A stretch of DNA of 48,426 nucleotides from a virus. The DNA lies in the IMG/VR virus record IMGVR_UViG_3300049846_000972, positions 1 through 48,426 of that record; one strand, given 5' to 3'. Shown one piece after another: positions 1,763 through 35,498 of the stretch. The translations under genes and the position numbers were made by a program. Positions within the stretch are counted from its first letter, which is position 1. Each line of letters begins with the position of its first letter. A model generated the notes under the pieces. It worked only from the letters and a program-made list of their open reading frames with translations, made no database searches and had not been told where the DNA came from.

Positions 1763-2086
1763 ATGACTAAAGAATATAAAGCTGTTAAGGATGTTGTTTA
1801 TAGTGCTGTTGATGAAGCTGCTTATATAGCTGTTTATAGGACTGTTAATAGGGAGCTAGATATTGCTGTTGGTAATGCTGTTTATAGGGCTGTTGGTAGT
1901 ACTGTGCATAGAGCTGTTTATAGTGCTGTGAATAGGGCTGTTTATAGTGCTGTTGATGAAGCTGCTTATATAGCTGTTTATAGTGCTGTTTATAATGCTG
2001 TTTATAGGGCTGTTTCTAGTGCTGTTGATGAAGCTGTTTATAGTGCTGTTTCTAGTGCTGTTGATCGGGAGTTAGATAATGACTAA
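1763..2086 (+). CDS. Repeat-array protein 1 (four-residue YxAV repeats), 107 aa
   Basis: Starts MTKEYKAVKDVVYSAV and ends DRELDND. Nearly the whole chain is a four-residue repeat of the form [YNDS]-x-A-V, for example VYSAVNRAVYSAV, encoded by a 12-bp unit such as TATAGTGCTGTT. The strong site GAGGGGG five nt before the ATG sets the start. It is the longest of five tandem paralogues at 1763-2828; the others have 67, 63, 67 and 57 residues. The spacing would put Ala/Val on one face of a helix or a regular solenoid (inference). I recognise no characterised family. The ATG of the next cistron overlaps this gene's stop by 8 nt. Confidence 0.7.
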   Translation: MTKEYKAVKDVVYSAVDEAAYIAVYRTVNRELDIAVGNAVYRAVGSTVHRAVYSAVNRAVYSAVDEAAYIAVYSAVYNAVYRAVSSAVDEAVYSAVSSAVDRELDND

Positions 2087-2282
2087 AGAATATGAAACTA
2101 TTAAGGGTGTTATAGGTGAGGCTGTTAGTACTACTATTCGCAGGTCGGTTCGAAGGGTTGTCTGTAGTAGTGCTACAGAAGGTGTTTATTGGGCTGTTGA
2201 TAGGGCTGTTAATAGGACTGTTAATATTGAGGTTTATAGAGCTGTTTCTAGTGCTATTGATCGAGAGTTAGATAATGACTAA
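2079..2282 (+). CDS. Repeat-array protein 2, 67 aa
   Basis: Starts MTKEYETIKGVIGEAV and ends DRELDND. It is the most diverged member: its middle contains TTIRRSVRRVVCSSATEGVY, with several Arg replacing the usual Tyr/Asn, so the copy is basic in its first half. The start lies inside the end of cistron 1 (8-nt overlap). The codons for R-E in the upstream C-terminus (CGGGAG) supply a GGGAG ribosome binding site seven nt before the ATG. Confidence 0.65.
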   Translation: MTKEYETIKGVIGEAVSTTIRRSVRRVVCSSATEGVYWAVDRAVNRTVNIEVYRAVSSAIDRELDND

Positions 2283-2466
2283 AGAATATGAAGCTGTTTG
2301 TGGTACTGTTTATAGGGTTGTTTATAATGATGTTTATTGGGCTGTTTGTAGTACTGTGAATAGGGCTGTTTGTAGTGATGTTTATAATGCTGTTTATAGT
2401 GATGTTAATATTGGGGTTTATAGGGCTGTTTATAATGCTATTAATCGGGAGTTAGATAATGACTAA
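2275..2466 (+). CDS. Repeat-array protein 3, 63 aa
   Basis: Starts MTKEYEAVCGTVYRVV, continues in YxxV repeats rich in Asp and Cys (AVCSDVYNAVYSDV) and ends NRELDND. It is one repeat unit (four residues) shorter than cistrons 2 and 4. The start overlaps the stop of cistron 2; here the upstream codons read CGAGAG, giving a weaker binding site. Function unknown. Confidence 0.65.
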   Translation: MTKEYEAVCGTVYRVVYNDVYWAVCSTVNRAVCSDVYNAVYSDVNIGVYRAVYNAINRELDND

Positions 2467-2662
2467 AGAATATGAAACTGTTAAGGGTGTTATTGATAGG
2501 GCTGTTTATCGTGATGTTTATAATGCTGTTTATAGGGCTGTTGGTAGTACTGTGCATAGGGCTGTTGGTAGTGATGTTTATAATGCTGTTAATAGGGAGC
2601 TAGATATTGCTGTTGGTAATACTGTGCATAGGGCTGTTATTGAGGAGATAGATAATGACTAA
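2459..2662 (+). CDS. Repeat-array protein 4, 67 aa
   Basis: Starts MTKEYETVKGVIDRAV and ends HRAVIEEIDND; the usual NRELDND terminus is altered to IEEIDND, yet the DNA still supplies GAGGAG seven nt before the next ATG. Contains a GSTVHRAVGSDVYNAV block shared with cistrons 1 and 5, evidence of exchange between copies. Function unknown. Confidence 0.65.
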   Translation: MTKEYETVKGVIDRAVYRDVYNAVYRAVGSTVHRAVGSDVYNAVNRELDIAVGNTVHRAVIEEIDND

Positions 2663-2828
2663 AGAATATGAAGCTGTTAAGGGTGTTATTGATGAGGCTG
2701 TTGGTAGTACTGTGCATAGGGCTGTTGGTAGTGATGTTTATAGTGCTGTTTATAGTGCTGTTTATAGGGTTGTTTATAATGCTGTTTATAATGCTATTAA
2801 TAGAGCGTTAGATAATGAGCTATTTTAA
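2655..2828 (+). CDS. Repeat-array protein 5, 57 aa
   Basis: Last copy, starting MTKEYEAVKGVIDEAV. It ends NRALDNELF because the array's junction sequence is lost: the reading frame runs on for three codons to a TAA at 2826. Like the others it is built of YxAV units (VYSAVYSAVYRVVYNAV). The start overlaps the stop of cistron 4 and uses the GAGGAG in that gene's end. Confidence 0.6.
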   Translation: MTKEYEAVKGVIDEAVGSTVHRAVGSDVYSAVYSAVYRVVYNAVYNAINRALDNELF

Positions 2829-3842: not shown

Positions 3843-4013
3843 ATGAGTAAACAGCAACATGTAGTAAAGTGTCGTGTATGTGAACAAACAGTAGCACACA
3901 ACCAACATAAAGGAATGTGTATTGATTGTTATATTGAAATGTCGAGATATAAGATCATTCAATTAGGAATGCTCCGAGAAGATTTATTAAAAGAGAGTCT
4001 CGACAATGAATAG
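3843..4013 (+). CDS. 56-residue double-CxxC zinc-finger protein
   Basis: Starts MSKQQHVVKCRVCEQTV. CRVC (residues 10-13) and CIDC (26-29) make a four-cysteine zinc site, followed by a helical C-terminus (YKIIQLGMLREDLLKESL). The leader AGGAGTATGTATC before the ATG duplicates that of the gene at 3176. The stop overlaps the start of the sigma factor (ATGAATAG), so the two are translationally coupled; a role as partner or regulator of the sigma factor is possible but is only inference from position. Confidence 0.65.
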   Translation: MSKQQHVVKCRVCEQTVAHNQHKGMCIDCYIEMSRYKIIQLGMLREDLLKESLDNE

Positions 4014-4557
4014 ATTAGTAGAGAATATCGTAGATAGAGTATTGAGTAATTATTCTCGCAGCTTTAAAGAGCTATATAGAGATGATTATATACAAGAAGC
4101 AAGTATCGCACATTGGGAAGCAGAGAAAACATATAATAGAAAAGAAGTTCCATTAGAGGCTTATAGAGCTTTGAAGATTAGATGGGCGTTAGGTGAATAT
4201 ACTCGTAAGTTAATTAAAGGGTACTCACAGCATAAAGATTATCAACATTTTTCTATTGATGATTTAGAGTATCAAACACAGACTACTGCAGAGATTAGTG
4301 TGCCATTAGTTCCCGTGAGTATTGGGGATAGATACTCTGAAGTTACACACACGATGATCACTTCAGAGTGGGATAGTGACATCTTACTAGCTCAAATACT
4401 GGATATGGTCTCTGCTATTGAGAAAGAGATTCTCTACGGTAGGCTTCTGGAATGGACAGACGCGCAGATCGCTAAGAGTCTCGGTATATCGAGTAGTACT
4501 GTACAGCGTCAATTTACTGCATTGAGTGAGCGATTACAAGAGGGAGCTATTATATGA
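4006..4557 (+). CDS. Phage-encoded RNA polymerase sigma factor (sigma70/ECF-like)
   Basis: 183 residues. The N-terminal part looks like sigma region 2: DDYIQEASIAHWEA (the D-x-x-Q-E-a pattern of region 2.1/2.2), then EAYRALKIRWALGEYTRKLIK, which fits the DNA-melting and -10-reading helix. After an acidic linker, residues about 128-178 look like region 4, with a helix-turn-helix WTDAQIAKSLGISSSTVQRQ that would read the -35. The length fits a two-domain group 4 factor. It would redirect host RNA polymerase to middle or late phage promoters, and no phage RNA polymerase is visible here. Overlaps both neighbours. The family call is firm in outline; the promoters it uses are unknown, with the two-box elements at 1554 and 47008 as candidates. 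Confidence 0.8.
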   Translation: MNRLVENIVDRVLSNYSRSFKELYRDDYIQEASIAHWEAEKTYNRKEVPLEAYRALKIRWALGEYTRKLIKGYSQHKDYQHFSIDDLEYQTQTTAEISVPLVPVSIGDRYSEVTHTMITSEWDSDILLAQILDMVSAIEKEILYGRLLEWTDAQIAKSLGISSSTVQRQFTALSERLQEGAII

Positions 4558-10200: not shown

Positions 10201-11247
10201 ATGATAGATAAATTAACGCCGGAACAAGAAGCAAAACTCCCAGAGTATCGGGACAAGTGGATATCTATAGGGTTATCTACCGAACCAGCAGATAGACCAC
10301 GGGCTGAAGCTGCGGTAAAGGAGTTATATAAACTCGTTGGCTTTCCTGAACCCGAGATTCAATGGCGAGATGATCCATTACAAGGGTCTAGAGCGGCTGG
10401 TGAATATGTAGAGAATTATTTTAAGGATAAACCCAAGCCCCAGAATTATGACGATCTTGTACGCTCTGCCCGCCGTAGTTGGATTGGAGGGTCGTTATGG
10501 GCTGGTTATGCAGCTTGGGCTGATTTCTTTAATCGCGAAGTAGGGATTGAAATTAATAGGGCTTATCTCGAGCTAGTTGAGTCTGTAGGGTATTATTTTT
10601 GTTTACGCGGGTTAGTGGTCTTAACAGAGCGGCCGAGTAAGATATTACGTGATGAACGTGGTAGGCTCCATAACCCTACGGGGAAAGCTATAGAGTACCC
10701 AAGCGGGTGGGGGATATATGCTATTCATGGTGTACGCGTCGATGAAGATATCATCCTGCATCCTGAGCAGATTACAGCCGAGCGGGTGTTAAAAGAGCCT
10801 AACGTGGAAATACGGCGTGTCATGCTTGATATCTTAGGCCGTCCAGCTTTTATGGCGCAGTTAAGTGCGGCGGGGCTAGTTGAAGTACTAGATCAAGACA
10901 TGGATAGTTTAGGCTTCCCCCGTAGGCTCATACGAATACAATTACCGGACGACGAGACTATAGTGGCGGTTGACGTTTTAAACTCTACGTTAGAGCCAGA
11001 TGGGACTAGGAAGCCTTACTTCATATTCCCAGAGCCTACTCTAAAGCCTGCTTTAGTACTAGCGGATGGGACTTCTAGGTTAATTGATGGAGCTCAAGCT
11101 CAAGAGTTGACCTGTCATAATGCGGTAGCGTCAACCTTTGGATATTATGGACATGAGTATGGAAAAAATGGACAGTTTAGGCAGGGGGATGTCCTAGTAG
11201 TCTTCAAGGATGGGGAAAACTTAAATGTAAACTTTCAAGAATCTTAA
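10201..11247 (+). CDS. DUF6745-like protein
   Basis: 348 residues starting MIDKLTPEQEAKLPEYRDKW. The order of elements matches my memory of the DUF6745 family: an N-terminal KLTPEQE...YRDKWI...LSTEP..R helix pair, a middle ERPSKILRDERGRLHNPTG, then AIEYPSGWGIYAIHGVRV and EPNVEIRRVMLDILG. Molecular function is not known for the family. AGAGAGGG just before the ATG sets the start. It lies between the polymerase and ssDNA-binding protein genes, followed by a small gene it often accompanies (recalled, not checked). Confidence 0.65.
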   Translation: MIDKLTPEQEAKLPEYRDKWISIGLSTEPADRPRAEAAVKELYKLVGFPEPEIQWRDDPLQGSRAAGEYVENYFKDKPKPQNYDDLVRSARRSWIGGSLWAGYAAWADFFNREVGIEINRAYLELVESVGYYFCLRGLVVLTERPSKILRDERGRLHNPTGKAIEYPSGWGIYAIHGVRVDEDIILHPEQITAERVLKEPNVEIRRVMLDILGRPAFMAQLSAAGLVEVLDQDMDSLGFPRRLIRIQLPDDETIVAVDVLNSTLEPDGTRKPYFIFPEPTLKPALVLADGTSRLIDGAQAQELTCHNAVASTFGYYGHEYGKNGQFRQGDVLVVFKDGENLNVNFQES

Positions 11248-11261
11248 TGAGGTATATAAAT

Positions 11262-11513
11262 ATGGCAAAGCAACAAATACAACCAATTATCCTAGCGTAT
11301 GGGGAAGTCACGGGGCACTGTCATCAAATTGAAGGTGGAAATACAAAAGCCAGCCTCCAGGTGAGGGAAGATGGTACCCGAGAGCTGACTATTTCAGAGC
11401 GTGCAGCATTAGTTCACGAAGAACATACAAAGCACGTCTTTTCACCTGGGACTGCTGACGTTCGTACACAAGCACAATATGTTATGGGTGAACTACAAAG
11501 GGCCGCTGACTAA
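11262..11513 (+). CDS. Small conserved partner of the DUF6745 gene, 83 aa
   Basis: Starts MAKQQIQPIILAYGEVTGHC; contains GEVTGHCHQIEG and LVHEEHTKHVFSPGTADVRTQ. The histidine-rich GHxH and HEEHxxH patterns could bind metal. I start it at 11262 with GAGG (11249-11252) upstream; an in-frame ATG at 11247 overlaps the previous stop and is also possible. Its final TAA overlaps the ATG of the ssDNA-binding protein gene. Function unknown. Confidence 0.6.
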   Translation: MAKQQIQPIILAYGEVTGHCHQIEGGNTKASLQVREDGTRELTISERAALVHEEHTKHVFSPGTADVRTQAQYVMGELQRAAD

Positions 11514-33635: not shown

Positions 33636-35498
33636 TTATCCCACTAAATAGTTAATTTTAAATTTATCTGCTAAATATGAACCGTCAGCAGTCGTTATAT
33701 ACATATTAAATTGTCCAGTACCATTACTGCAGACAATATTTAAGCTATCCATTTCGCACTCATCTAAATCTTTACCCGTAGGAGCTTCATAGGCAAGATA
33801 GGCGATAATCTGGTTAGAGGTACTTACACTTGCGTCTGTAATTGTAAAAGTACCCTCTGCGACAGGTGTGGTTCCGAAGTCAACTTCAGTTTGTTTAATA
33901 TCTGTAGAGGAAGCACCAGGAGAAGTCCATGTACCATCCGCCCGTAAGAAATTAGTTGTTCCACCACCTGAGGCCGGAGCTAAACCCTTTAGACCACTGG
34001 TAAAGGTATCAAGAAGAGTAGTAGCTTGAGTGCCTGTTAATTCTTCAGTATCCCCTGCACCTGCAGTAATACGACCTAAGAAACGGCTAGTAGCTGAAAC
34101 ATTTTGCATCTTAGCATATGTTACAACATCATTATCAATTGTCCAGGTAGCACCACCACCCGAAACTGTGATATCTCCCTTATCACCGTCAGTAACACCA
34201 CCCCCACTAGAGGCAATAGTGATATCAACTTGATCGTTCCCTGCATCGTCTGCTATTGTAAGGGTAACATTCGTACCCTCTATAAAATTTAATTGTTTTC
34301 TGGTTCCAACAACAGCCCCAGAGTTTTTAACCACTTCTACTTTTTGAGTGCTTGAGTTAGCTATAACAGCAGCCGTTATCGTATTACCAGCATCATTATA
34401 AGTAAAATCGACGGTGCTAGAATCTGTTAAGATATTCCCAACAGCGTCTTGAGCTAATTCATCGGTATATTGGGTGATCGTTACAGTCGGGGTAAGAGTA
34501 TTACCAGCGTCATTATAAGACCATGTAATGCCTGTACCATTCTGTATAAGTACAGCAACTCTATCATCTACCCTTTCATCAGTATAATAAAGGTTTGTAC
34601 CTTCAGATAAGTTTGTAGTCGAGAAGGGACTTAAAGATATAGTCGGAGTAAAGGTATTACTAGGATCATTATAGCTCCATGTAATGCCTGTACCATTTTG
34701 TATAAGAACTGAAACTCTATCATCAACTCGTTCATCGGTATAGTAGAGATTGGAGCCTTCAGAGAGGTTACTTGTGGAGAATGCACTTAACGATACTGTT
34801 GGAGTAAGAGTATTACTTACGTCACTATACGACCATGTAATGCCTGTACCATTCTGTATAAGTACAGCTACTCTATCGTCTACCCTTTCGTCTGTATAAT
34901 AGAGATTAGAGCCTTCAGAAAGGTTAGTTGTGGATTTCCCACTAAAAGCACTGTCAAAGCGTGCTTGGGTGTAATAAAGGTTTGTACCTTCAGAAAGGTT
35001 AGTCGTACTAAAGGGGCTTAACGAGATAGTAGGTGTAAAGGTATTACTAGGATCATTATAAGACCATGTAATGCCTGTACCATTCTGTATAAGTACAGCA
35101 ACTCTATCGTCTGTAGCCTCATCAAAGTCAGAGATAAAAGCAGCCGTTTTAGTGCCGGTAATTTGAGAAGACGCTATCGAGAGATTAGCCTCGTTTACGT
35201 CTAAAGTTGCCCCACTTAAGGAGAGCTTGCTAGACCCAACAGCTAATACAGTCTCATTTGTTAATGTACCATTAGCAGCTAAAACAACGTATTGAGCATC
35301 GGCAGGGGCCCCACCTCCACCACCCCCAACAGTCGCAAAGGTCACTGGGGAGGTTGACGTACAGATTTTAGCTGTAGGAGTCCCTGACGTATCCATCCAA
35401 AGATCGGCTAATGTAACACCATCGGCTGCTGTAGGAGCACTAGACCCCTCAAACATCTTAATAACGGAGCCAGTGGAAGATTTAACCCAACGAGCCAT
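33636..35498 (-). CDS. Fibre-like protein with internal NLSEG-NLYYT repeats, 620 aa
   Basis: 620 residues starting MARWVKSSTGSVIKMFEGSS. Residues about 130-350 contain four copies of VLIQNGTGITWSY and four of NLSEG[ST]NLYYT followed by DERVDDR, spaced about 50-55 residues, a repeat common in tailed-phage fibres. Then KMQNVSATSRFLGRITAGAG links it to the other fibres here, and a C-terminal globular part (TPVAEGTFTITDASVSTSNQ onward) ends it. The repeats are also near-identical in DNA, so copy number may vary. Confidence 0.75.
   Translation of the reverse strand: MARWVKSSTGSVIKMFEGSSAPTAADGVTLADLWMDTSGTPTAKICTSTSPVTFATVGGGGGGAPADAQYVVLAANGTLTNETVLAVGSSKLSLSGATLDVNEANLSIASSQITGTKTAAFISDFDEATDDRVAVLIQNGTGITWSYNDPSNTFTPTISLSPFSTTNLSEGTNLYYTQARFDSAFSGKSTTNLSEGSNLYYTDERVDDRVAVLIQNGTGITWSYSDVSNTLTPTVSLSAFSTSNLSEGSNLYYTDERVDDRVSVLIQNGTGITWSYNDPSNTFTPTISLSPFSTTNLSEGTNLYYTDERVDDRVAVLIQNGTGITWSYNDAGNTLTPTVTITQYTDELAQDAVGNILTDSSTVDFTYNDAGNTITAAVIANSSTQKVEVVKNSGAVVGTRKQLNFIEGTNVTLTIADDAGNDQVDITIASSGGGVTDGDKGDITVSGGGATWTIDNDVVTYAKMQNVSATSRFLGRITAGAGDTEELTGTQATTLLDTFTSGLKGLAPASGGGTTNFLRADGTWTSPGASSTDIKQTEVDFGTTPVAEGTFTITDASVSTSNQIIAYLAYEAPTGKDLDECEMDSLNIVCSNGTGQFNMYITTADGSYLADKFKINYLVG

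Follow-up and report, generated by a model that had tools for sequence, protein, structure and literature searches.

The window analyzed here is the whole 48,426-nucleotide stretch (positions 1 to 48,426) of the IMG/VR virus record IMGVR_UViG_3300049846_000972, which encodes a primase/helicase, a DNA polymerase, an exonuclease, a portal protein and a terminase. Near its left end, leftward genes ending at 1139 are separated from a rightward operon by ~620 bp without a called gene (1140–1762), which contains a 24-bp tandem repeat (1666–1711) and had no match in Rfam. The opening gene block of this operon, which includes the replication genes, is an array of short coupled cistrons at 1763–2828 on the plus strand. 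The same operon encodes a sigma-factor-like protein (phrog_351; 4006–4557, plus strand) and a trypsin-like peptidase (PF13365; 16621–17307, plus strand), and a structural protein (PHROG 697/15416; 33636–35498, minus strand) contains a 156-bp (52-aa) unit repeated ~2.9 times at 34482–34934. A megablast search of the first 25 kb of the window against INPHARED returned no match.

The initial annotation, made from the sequence alone, described five cistrons of 107, 67, 63, 67 and 57 amino acids, and this was confirmed, with ATG starts throughout: cistron 1 at 1763–2086, cistron 2 (whose repeats are the most diverged) at 2079–2282, cistron 3 at 2275–2466, cistron 4 at 2459–2662 and cistron 5, the last, at 2655–2828. 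Recomputing the start-to-start spacing gave the same 316, 196, 184 and 196 bp, all equal to 12n+4. The reported 12-bp repeat also stands, but its consensus is x-x-A-V rather than Y-x-A-V: of the 73 core units, 34 begin with tyrosine, and positions 3 and 4 vary as well. The register of the V/I column is constant from the start in every cistron, and since the frame change is offset each time by a 4-bp re-phasing, all cistrons read x-x-A-V; this re-phasing at all junctions, together with independent copies in other phages, rules out a chance or artefactual origin of the array. Repeat gain and loss in 12-bp units, as originally proposed, is supported and extends to whole cistrons: a 196-bp period (~2.5–3 copies, 76–80% match) indicates that entire cistrons were duplicated besides the 12-bp units.

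At each junction the stop codon overlaps the next start by 8 bp (ATGACTAA; for cistrons 1 and 2 at 2079–2086), not by 1 or 4 bp, with a TAA stop in one frame and an ATG in the next. A purine-rich ribosome-binding site (GAGAGGGGG, 1749–1757) precedes cistron 1, and that of each internal start falls within the final codons of the cistron upstream: GGGAG in cistron 1 for cistron 2 (2067–2071), GAGAG in cistron 2 for cistron 3 (2263–2267), GGGAG in cistron 3 for cistron 4 (2447–2451) and GAGGAG in cistron 4 for cistron 5 (2642–2647), all on the plus strand. The GGGAG site of the initial annotation is therefore present at two junctions and replaced by GAGAG or GAGGAG at one junction each; similarly, the RELDND C-terminus is exact in cistrons 1–3, reads EEIDND in cistron 4, and gives way to RALDNELF in the last cistron, where the coupling tail is lost.

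That the proteins belong to no characterised family was borne out, as searches of Pfam, PHROGs and NCBIfam gave no cistron match above cut-off and only weak, chance-level ones below it. A PADLOC search with cistron 1 and one cistron of another array (L222) found no match, and tblastn of cistron 1 against phages found nothing, a weak negative because BLAST masks low complexity. Net charges calculated for the five products span −14 to +3. Structurally, AlphaFold2 modelled cistron 1 as all-helical with two long helices (pLDDT 75, low pTM of 0.39), and Foldseek found nothing significant for this model. The hydrophobic moment peaks at 90–91 degrees in five of five proteins tested, a period of four, and a solenoid fold is possible given the Gly-, Ser- and Asp-rich units of other members.

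Pattern scans recovered the same architecture in at least four more IMG/VR phage records, with 23, at least four, four and at least four coupled cistrons. Record IMGVR_UViG_3300048031_000576 (G001, 57 kb) has an array of 12 coupled cistrons (L130), found by an A-V-Y repeat scan, and 11 further cistrons from a second scan; its junctions are ATGACTAA, ATGATTAA or ATGAATAA, with two ATGA, and its tails (REINHD, EEVSHE and similar) contain GGGAG or GGAGG. The array of IMGVR_UViG_3300048606_000041 (G002) spans the contig ends, with at least four cistrons in the second scan and GTGGATGA junctions accompanied by AGGAGGTG. Among the matches listed by a third IMG/VR scan were IMGVR_UViG_3300012931_000013 (G003), with four cistrons, ATGA overlaps and the conserved tail DNSTYTRADILRVEKIIQGQLS, and IMGVR_UViG_3300044527_001279 (G004, 7.5 kb), with at least four diverged cistrons. 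The compared loci of these four records have no DNA in common with the window outside the array, and the G+C of the array-bearing records spans 0.38 to 0.62. Rather than being of fixed length, the homologues vary in both length and cistron number. A SAVx array at the contig ends of IMGVR_UViG_3300002460_000076 (L233), in two frames, may be either an array or a split DUF6745 gene. Several candidates were discarded: blastn matches to Vibrio and Rheinheimera phages turned out to be other low-complexity proteins, and many matches of an early pattern scan were AVAVAV low-complexity frames. Two junction-pattern scans were uninformative: the six matches of the genome scan contained no short x-x-A-V array on scanning, the gap setting of the viral scan (4–7 bases) left out the L130 spacing, and its six matches held no array on translation.

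Coupling equivalent to that of the window was found at more than 20 junctions in the four further records, the stop/start overlap coinciding with a ribosome-binding site in the upstream cistron, although the sites are weak in arrays L222 and L262. The start codon, the 8-bp or 4-bp overlap and the internal ribosome-binding site are kept despite differing sequences (ATGACTAA, ATGATTAA, ATGAATAA, GTGGATGA and ATGA). Because the last cistrons of the window array, both G001 arrays and the G002 array lack the tail, the RE[LI][DN][NH]D ending looks like a translation-coupling signal and not a protein motif, that is, a protein tail that apparently exists to carry a ribosome-binding site and a start codon. 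In G001 and G002 the N-termini of the first cistrons and the C-termini of the last are distinct, so the ends that the other cistrons share likewise seem to result from the coupling signal. Judged from these sequence features, translational coupling of the cistrons is very likely; termination–reinitiation at overlapping gene pairs is already known (PMC6728339).

Evolutionarily, the units differ from one another mostly in ways that alter the protein. Across 26 arrays and DUF6745 inserts, 8 of 78 fourfold-degenerate sites vary between units compared with 81 of 209 zero-fold sites (Fisher p = 1.4e-6, no more than an approximate value, since the units of one gene are non-independent); array L262 is the exception, with synonymous variation equal to non-synonymous. 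The G001 unit is NNC-NNT-GCC-GTG, and its aspartate codons are GAC in 55 of 56 cases at x1 and GAT in 55 of 55 at x2, which excludes codon bias and indicates that the third bases are passed on as part of the repeat. Nearly all variation in G002 falls at 3 of the 12 unit positions and is non-synonymous, and in one DUF6745 insert (L046) all 35 units read TCG GCG GTC, with variation limited to bases 1 and 2 of the fourth codon (G, D, Y, R). Homogenisation combined with diversifying selection would explain this pattern. A pN/pS above 1 between repeats may partly reflect relaxed constraint, and strongly relaxed constraint or faster divergence among new repeats is a general pattern (PMC5120217). Gap lengths modulo 12 in pairwise alignments (31% at 0) were confounded by alignment noise and were not used.

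The proposed functional partner of the array is a 348-aa DUF6745 protein (PF20530; E = 1.9e-32, 112.7 bits, where the cut-off is 27) encoded 7.4 kb away at 10201–11247 on the plus strand, which has no tetrapeptide-repeat insert. Elsewhere, in phages, a prophage and bacterial plasmids, DUF6745 proteins contain an insert of 12–60 copies of array-type tetrapeptide units, whose SAVx, GAVx, DQLx and SSLx repeats resemble those of the arrays; the unit is x-(G/D)-Q-L in a Mycobacterium abscessus prophage and x-S-S-L in a metagenomic phage, at the equivalent position. Among the matches listed, PF20530 occurs in three of the five array records (the window, G002 and G003), and the insert is missing from all three. 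No match was found in G004, a fragment of 7.5 kb, or in G001, whose arrays are the largest; for partial records such a negative does not prove absence. The DUF6745 stop overlaps the first array start by ATGA in G003, and in G002 the gene lies two genes upstream of the array, with one gene between. The array cistrons themselves (window, L130, L222) have no PF20530 domain above the curated cut-off. Only two relatives of the window protein were found in INPHARED (50,697 phage records), both with the insert, and DUF6745 was present in 2 of 399 Pseudomonadota genomes.

The arrays seem to have split off from the fast-changing repeat region of DUF6745. Fusion in some genomes alongside a split but adjacent form elsewhere is a classical indication of functional association, and a partnership between arrays and DUF6745 is probable; the proteins may interact physically. 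The AlphaFold2 model of the window DUF6745 protein has a core pLDDT of 84 and no significant Foldseek match among solved structures. The sole profile match of this core, pairing its repeat columns with a designed helical repeat protein, was set aside as likely repeat similarity. We found no paper on DUF6745 in a search without preprints and with few subscription papers, and because neither a paper nor a solved-structure match gives its function, a binding role rests on analogy. The PADLOC model PDLC03396 ('type II nicking endonuclease') matches DUF6745 proteins in their SAVx repeats and so probably contains, or is contaminated by, such repeats; PADLOC matches of DUF6745 proteins, mostly within repeat regions, were dropped as indications of function. 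On plasmids of Streptomyces (L324) and Deinococcus (L327), DUF6745 genes without tetrapeptide repeats adjoin an STM4011-4015 radical-SAM cluster, and the Deinococcus taeanensis protein (L327:3365-4366) has N-terminal leucine-rich-like repeats in their place.

Directly downstream of the window DUF6745 gene, at 11247–11513 on the plus strand, lies a gene for a small protein (88 aa; GEVTGHCH...HEEH...RAAD) from a family that adjoins DUF6745 genes in other phages and bacteria: beyond the window, members were seen in G002, Streptomyces, Deinococcus and the M. abscessus prophage, with a related sequence near DUF6745 on a Nocardia plasmid. Relatives lie at L161:13596-13949, L324:3900-4229, L327:3069-3365 and L322:2044-2439. 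The family, whose motif is mostly QGDVLI...GEVTGHxH...HEEH...QREY, had no Pfam match above cut-off and no NCBIfam match. In the window, the corresponding QGDVLV is seemingly at the DUF6745 C-terminus.

We posit, with a probability of roughly 0.45, that the array is the DUF6745 repeat module unfused into polycistronic, diversified small recognition proteins. The cistrons would be read in turn from one mRNA by termination and re-initiation, each using a ribosome-binding site in the last codons of its predecessor and an ATG or GTG overlapping the stop, and would probably be made in comparable amounts. The products would combine a common A-V core with differing x residues, giving a varied set of small repeat proteins. 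Most DUF6745 proteins have these repeats fused in cis, whereas in the window phage and two others, where DUF6745 is insert-less, the co-occurring arrays may supply them in trans. Recognition is our best guess for what the array proteins do, a tentative one drawn by analogy. The most likely target of the exposed x residues would be a partner that itself changes fast, for example a protein of the host, of a competing phage or of a defence system. Diversifying selection would act while 12-bp units and whole cistrons are gained, lost and shuffled to give new variants. A more elaborate and rather doubtful version is a repertoire system, with the array as a library, hypervariable residues setting the targets, a common DUF6745 effector acting in trans, and shuffling renewing the set. 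Of the functions suggested at the outset, variable surface-like proteins are not favoured, as nothing points to the surface and the array opens a replication-gene operon and is tied to DUF6745; the tuning of copy number found no supporting evidence.

The products might instead be structural, forming helical or solenoid polymers that can stand in for one another, as in a scaffold, a filament or a membrane coat, with x residues under relaxed constraint and cistron number serving only as dose. The period-4 hydrophobic pattern, the long helices of the AlphaFold2 model and the generally accelerated divergence of repeats (PMC5120217) all fit, but under relaxed constraint silent changes should be no rarer than replacements, whereas fourfold sites hardly vary in most arrays and inserts, and the net charges of the products differ widely, so we regard this account as somewhat unlikely. 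Less likely still are anti-defence decoys, a library of small proteins saturating or misleading a host defence sensor independently of DUF6745. Their position as the first genes of a rightward operon with primase/helicase and DNA polymerase, and the G001 arrays without a detected DUF6745, would agree with such a role; the negative PADLOC searches, the lack of direct evidence of a defence partner, and the association with DUF6745 in three of five array records argue against it.

Two further accounts concern how the variation arises, and both seem improbable. Tandem 12-bp repeats are prone to slippage, and neutral or selfish expansion of a gene that stays open by chance, with little function, would accord with this and with freely varying cistron number and length and no family match. 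It does not predict a frame re-phased at every junction, sites and overlaps kept at more than 20 junctions of differing sequence, mainly non-synonymous change, or the DUF6745 link. A diversity-generating retroelement or other directed mutator writing the variable codons seems, if anything, slightly more remote: the confinement of variable codons to positions 1 and 2, their third base being frozen (NRY or NNC/NNT), recalls AAY-derived codons, but no RVT_1 reverse transcriptase was found in the window, G001 or G002 (the latter two perhaps incomplete), the four bases are not all present at several variable positions, and variation runs throughout the arrays and not in one 3' cassette.

Comparison with known systems helps to place the unfused, diversified repeat module that we favour. 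Its closest relatives, the insert-bearing DUF6745 proteins, have the same x-x-A-V unit, a homogenised 12-bp DNA repeat and non-synonymous variation in one or two codons, but are single long open reading frames in which an N-terminal helical part precedes the repeats and the DUF6745 domain follows them, whereas the arrays are separate coupled small proteins without that domain. In the high-internal-conservation (HiC) WD, ANK and TPR repeats of fungal NLR receptors, near-identical repeats likewise carry a few hypervariable, diversified positions, change in number and evolve in concert (PMC4986451), the criterion being that repeats are at least 85% identical over a minimum of 100 residues. Units are almost the same in G002 and in most DUF6745 inserts but less alike in the window and L262, and diversifying selection at few positions was found here too, approximately, as units are not independent. 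HiC units are ~30–40 residues long and sit in large NLR proteins (PMC4986451). The arrays differ in having four-residue units, being phage-borne, comprising many cistrons and lacking an NLR domain. Repeats identical save for hypervariable positions that set binding are also found in TAL effectors, as 34-residue units of a single DNA-binding protein; the arrays have 4-residue units spread over many proteins, with no sign of nucleic-acid binding. Overlapping gene pairs have the same stop/start overlap and internal ribosome-binding site but are typically unrelated genes (PMC6728339), whereas the arrays are chains of 4–12 paralogous repeat cistrons.

A literature search without preprints and with few subscription papers found nothing on coupled repeat-cistron arrays, and the initial suggestion of an undescribed system apparently holds, with coupling judged by sequence criteria: what appears new is a polycistronic form built of tetrapeptide units and linked to a partner without the insert. 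If our reading is true, a hypervariable repeat domain has become a chain of coupled mini-genes, an undescribed architecture present in at least five phage records, and it would offer a testable handle on DUF6745 and on phage recognition diversity built from a very small repeat unit. This suggests a previously undescribed route by which phages may obtain a varied set of small binding proteins.
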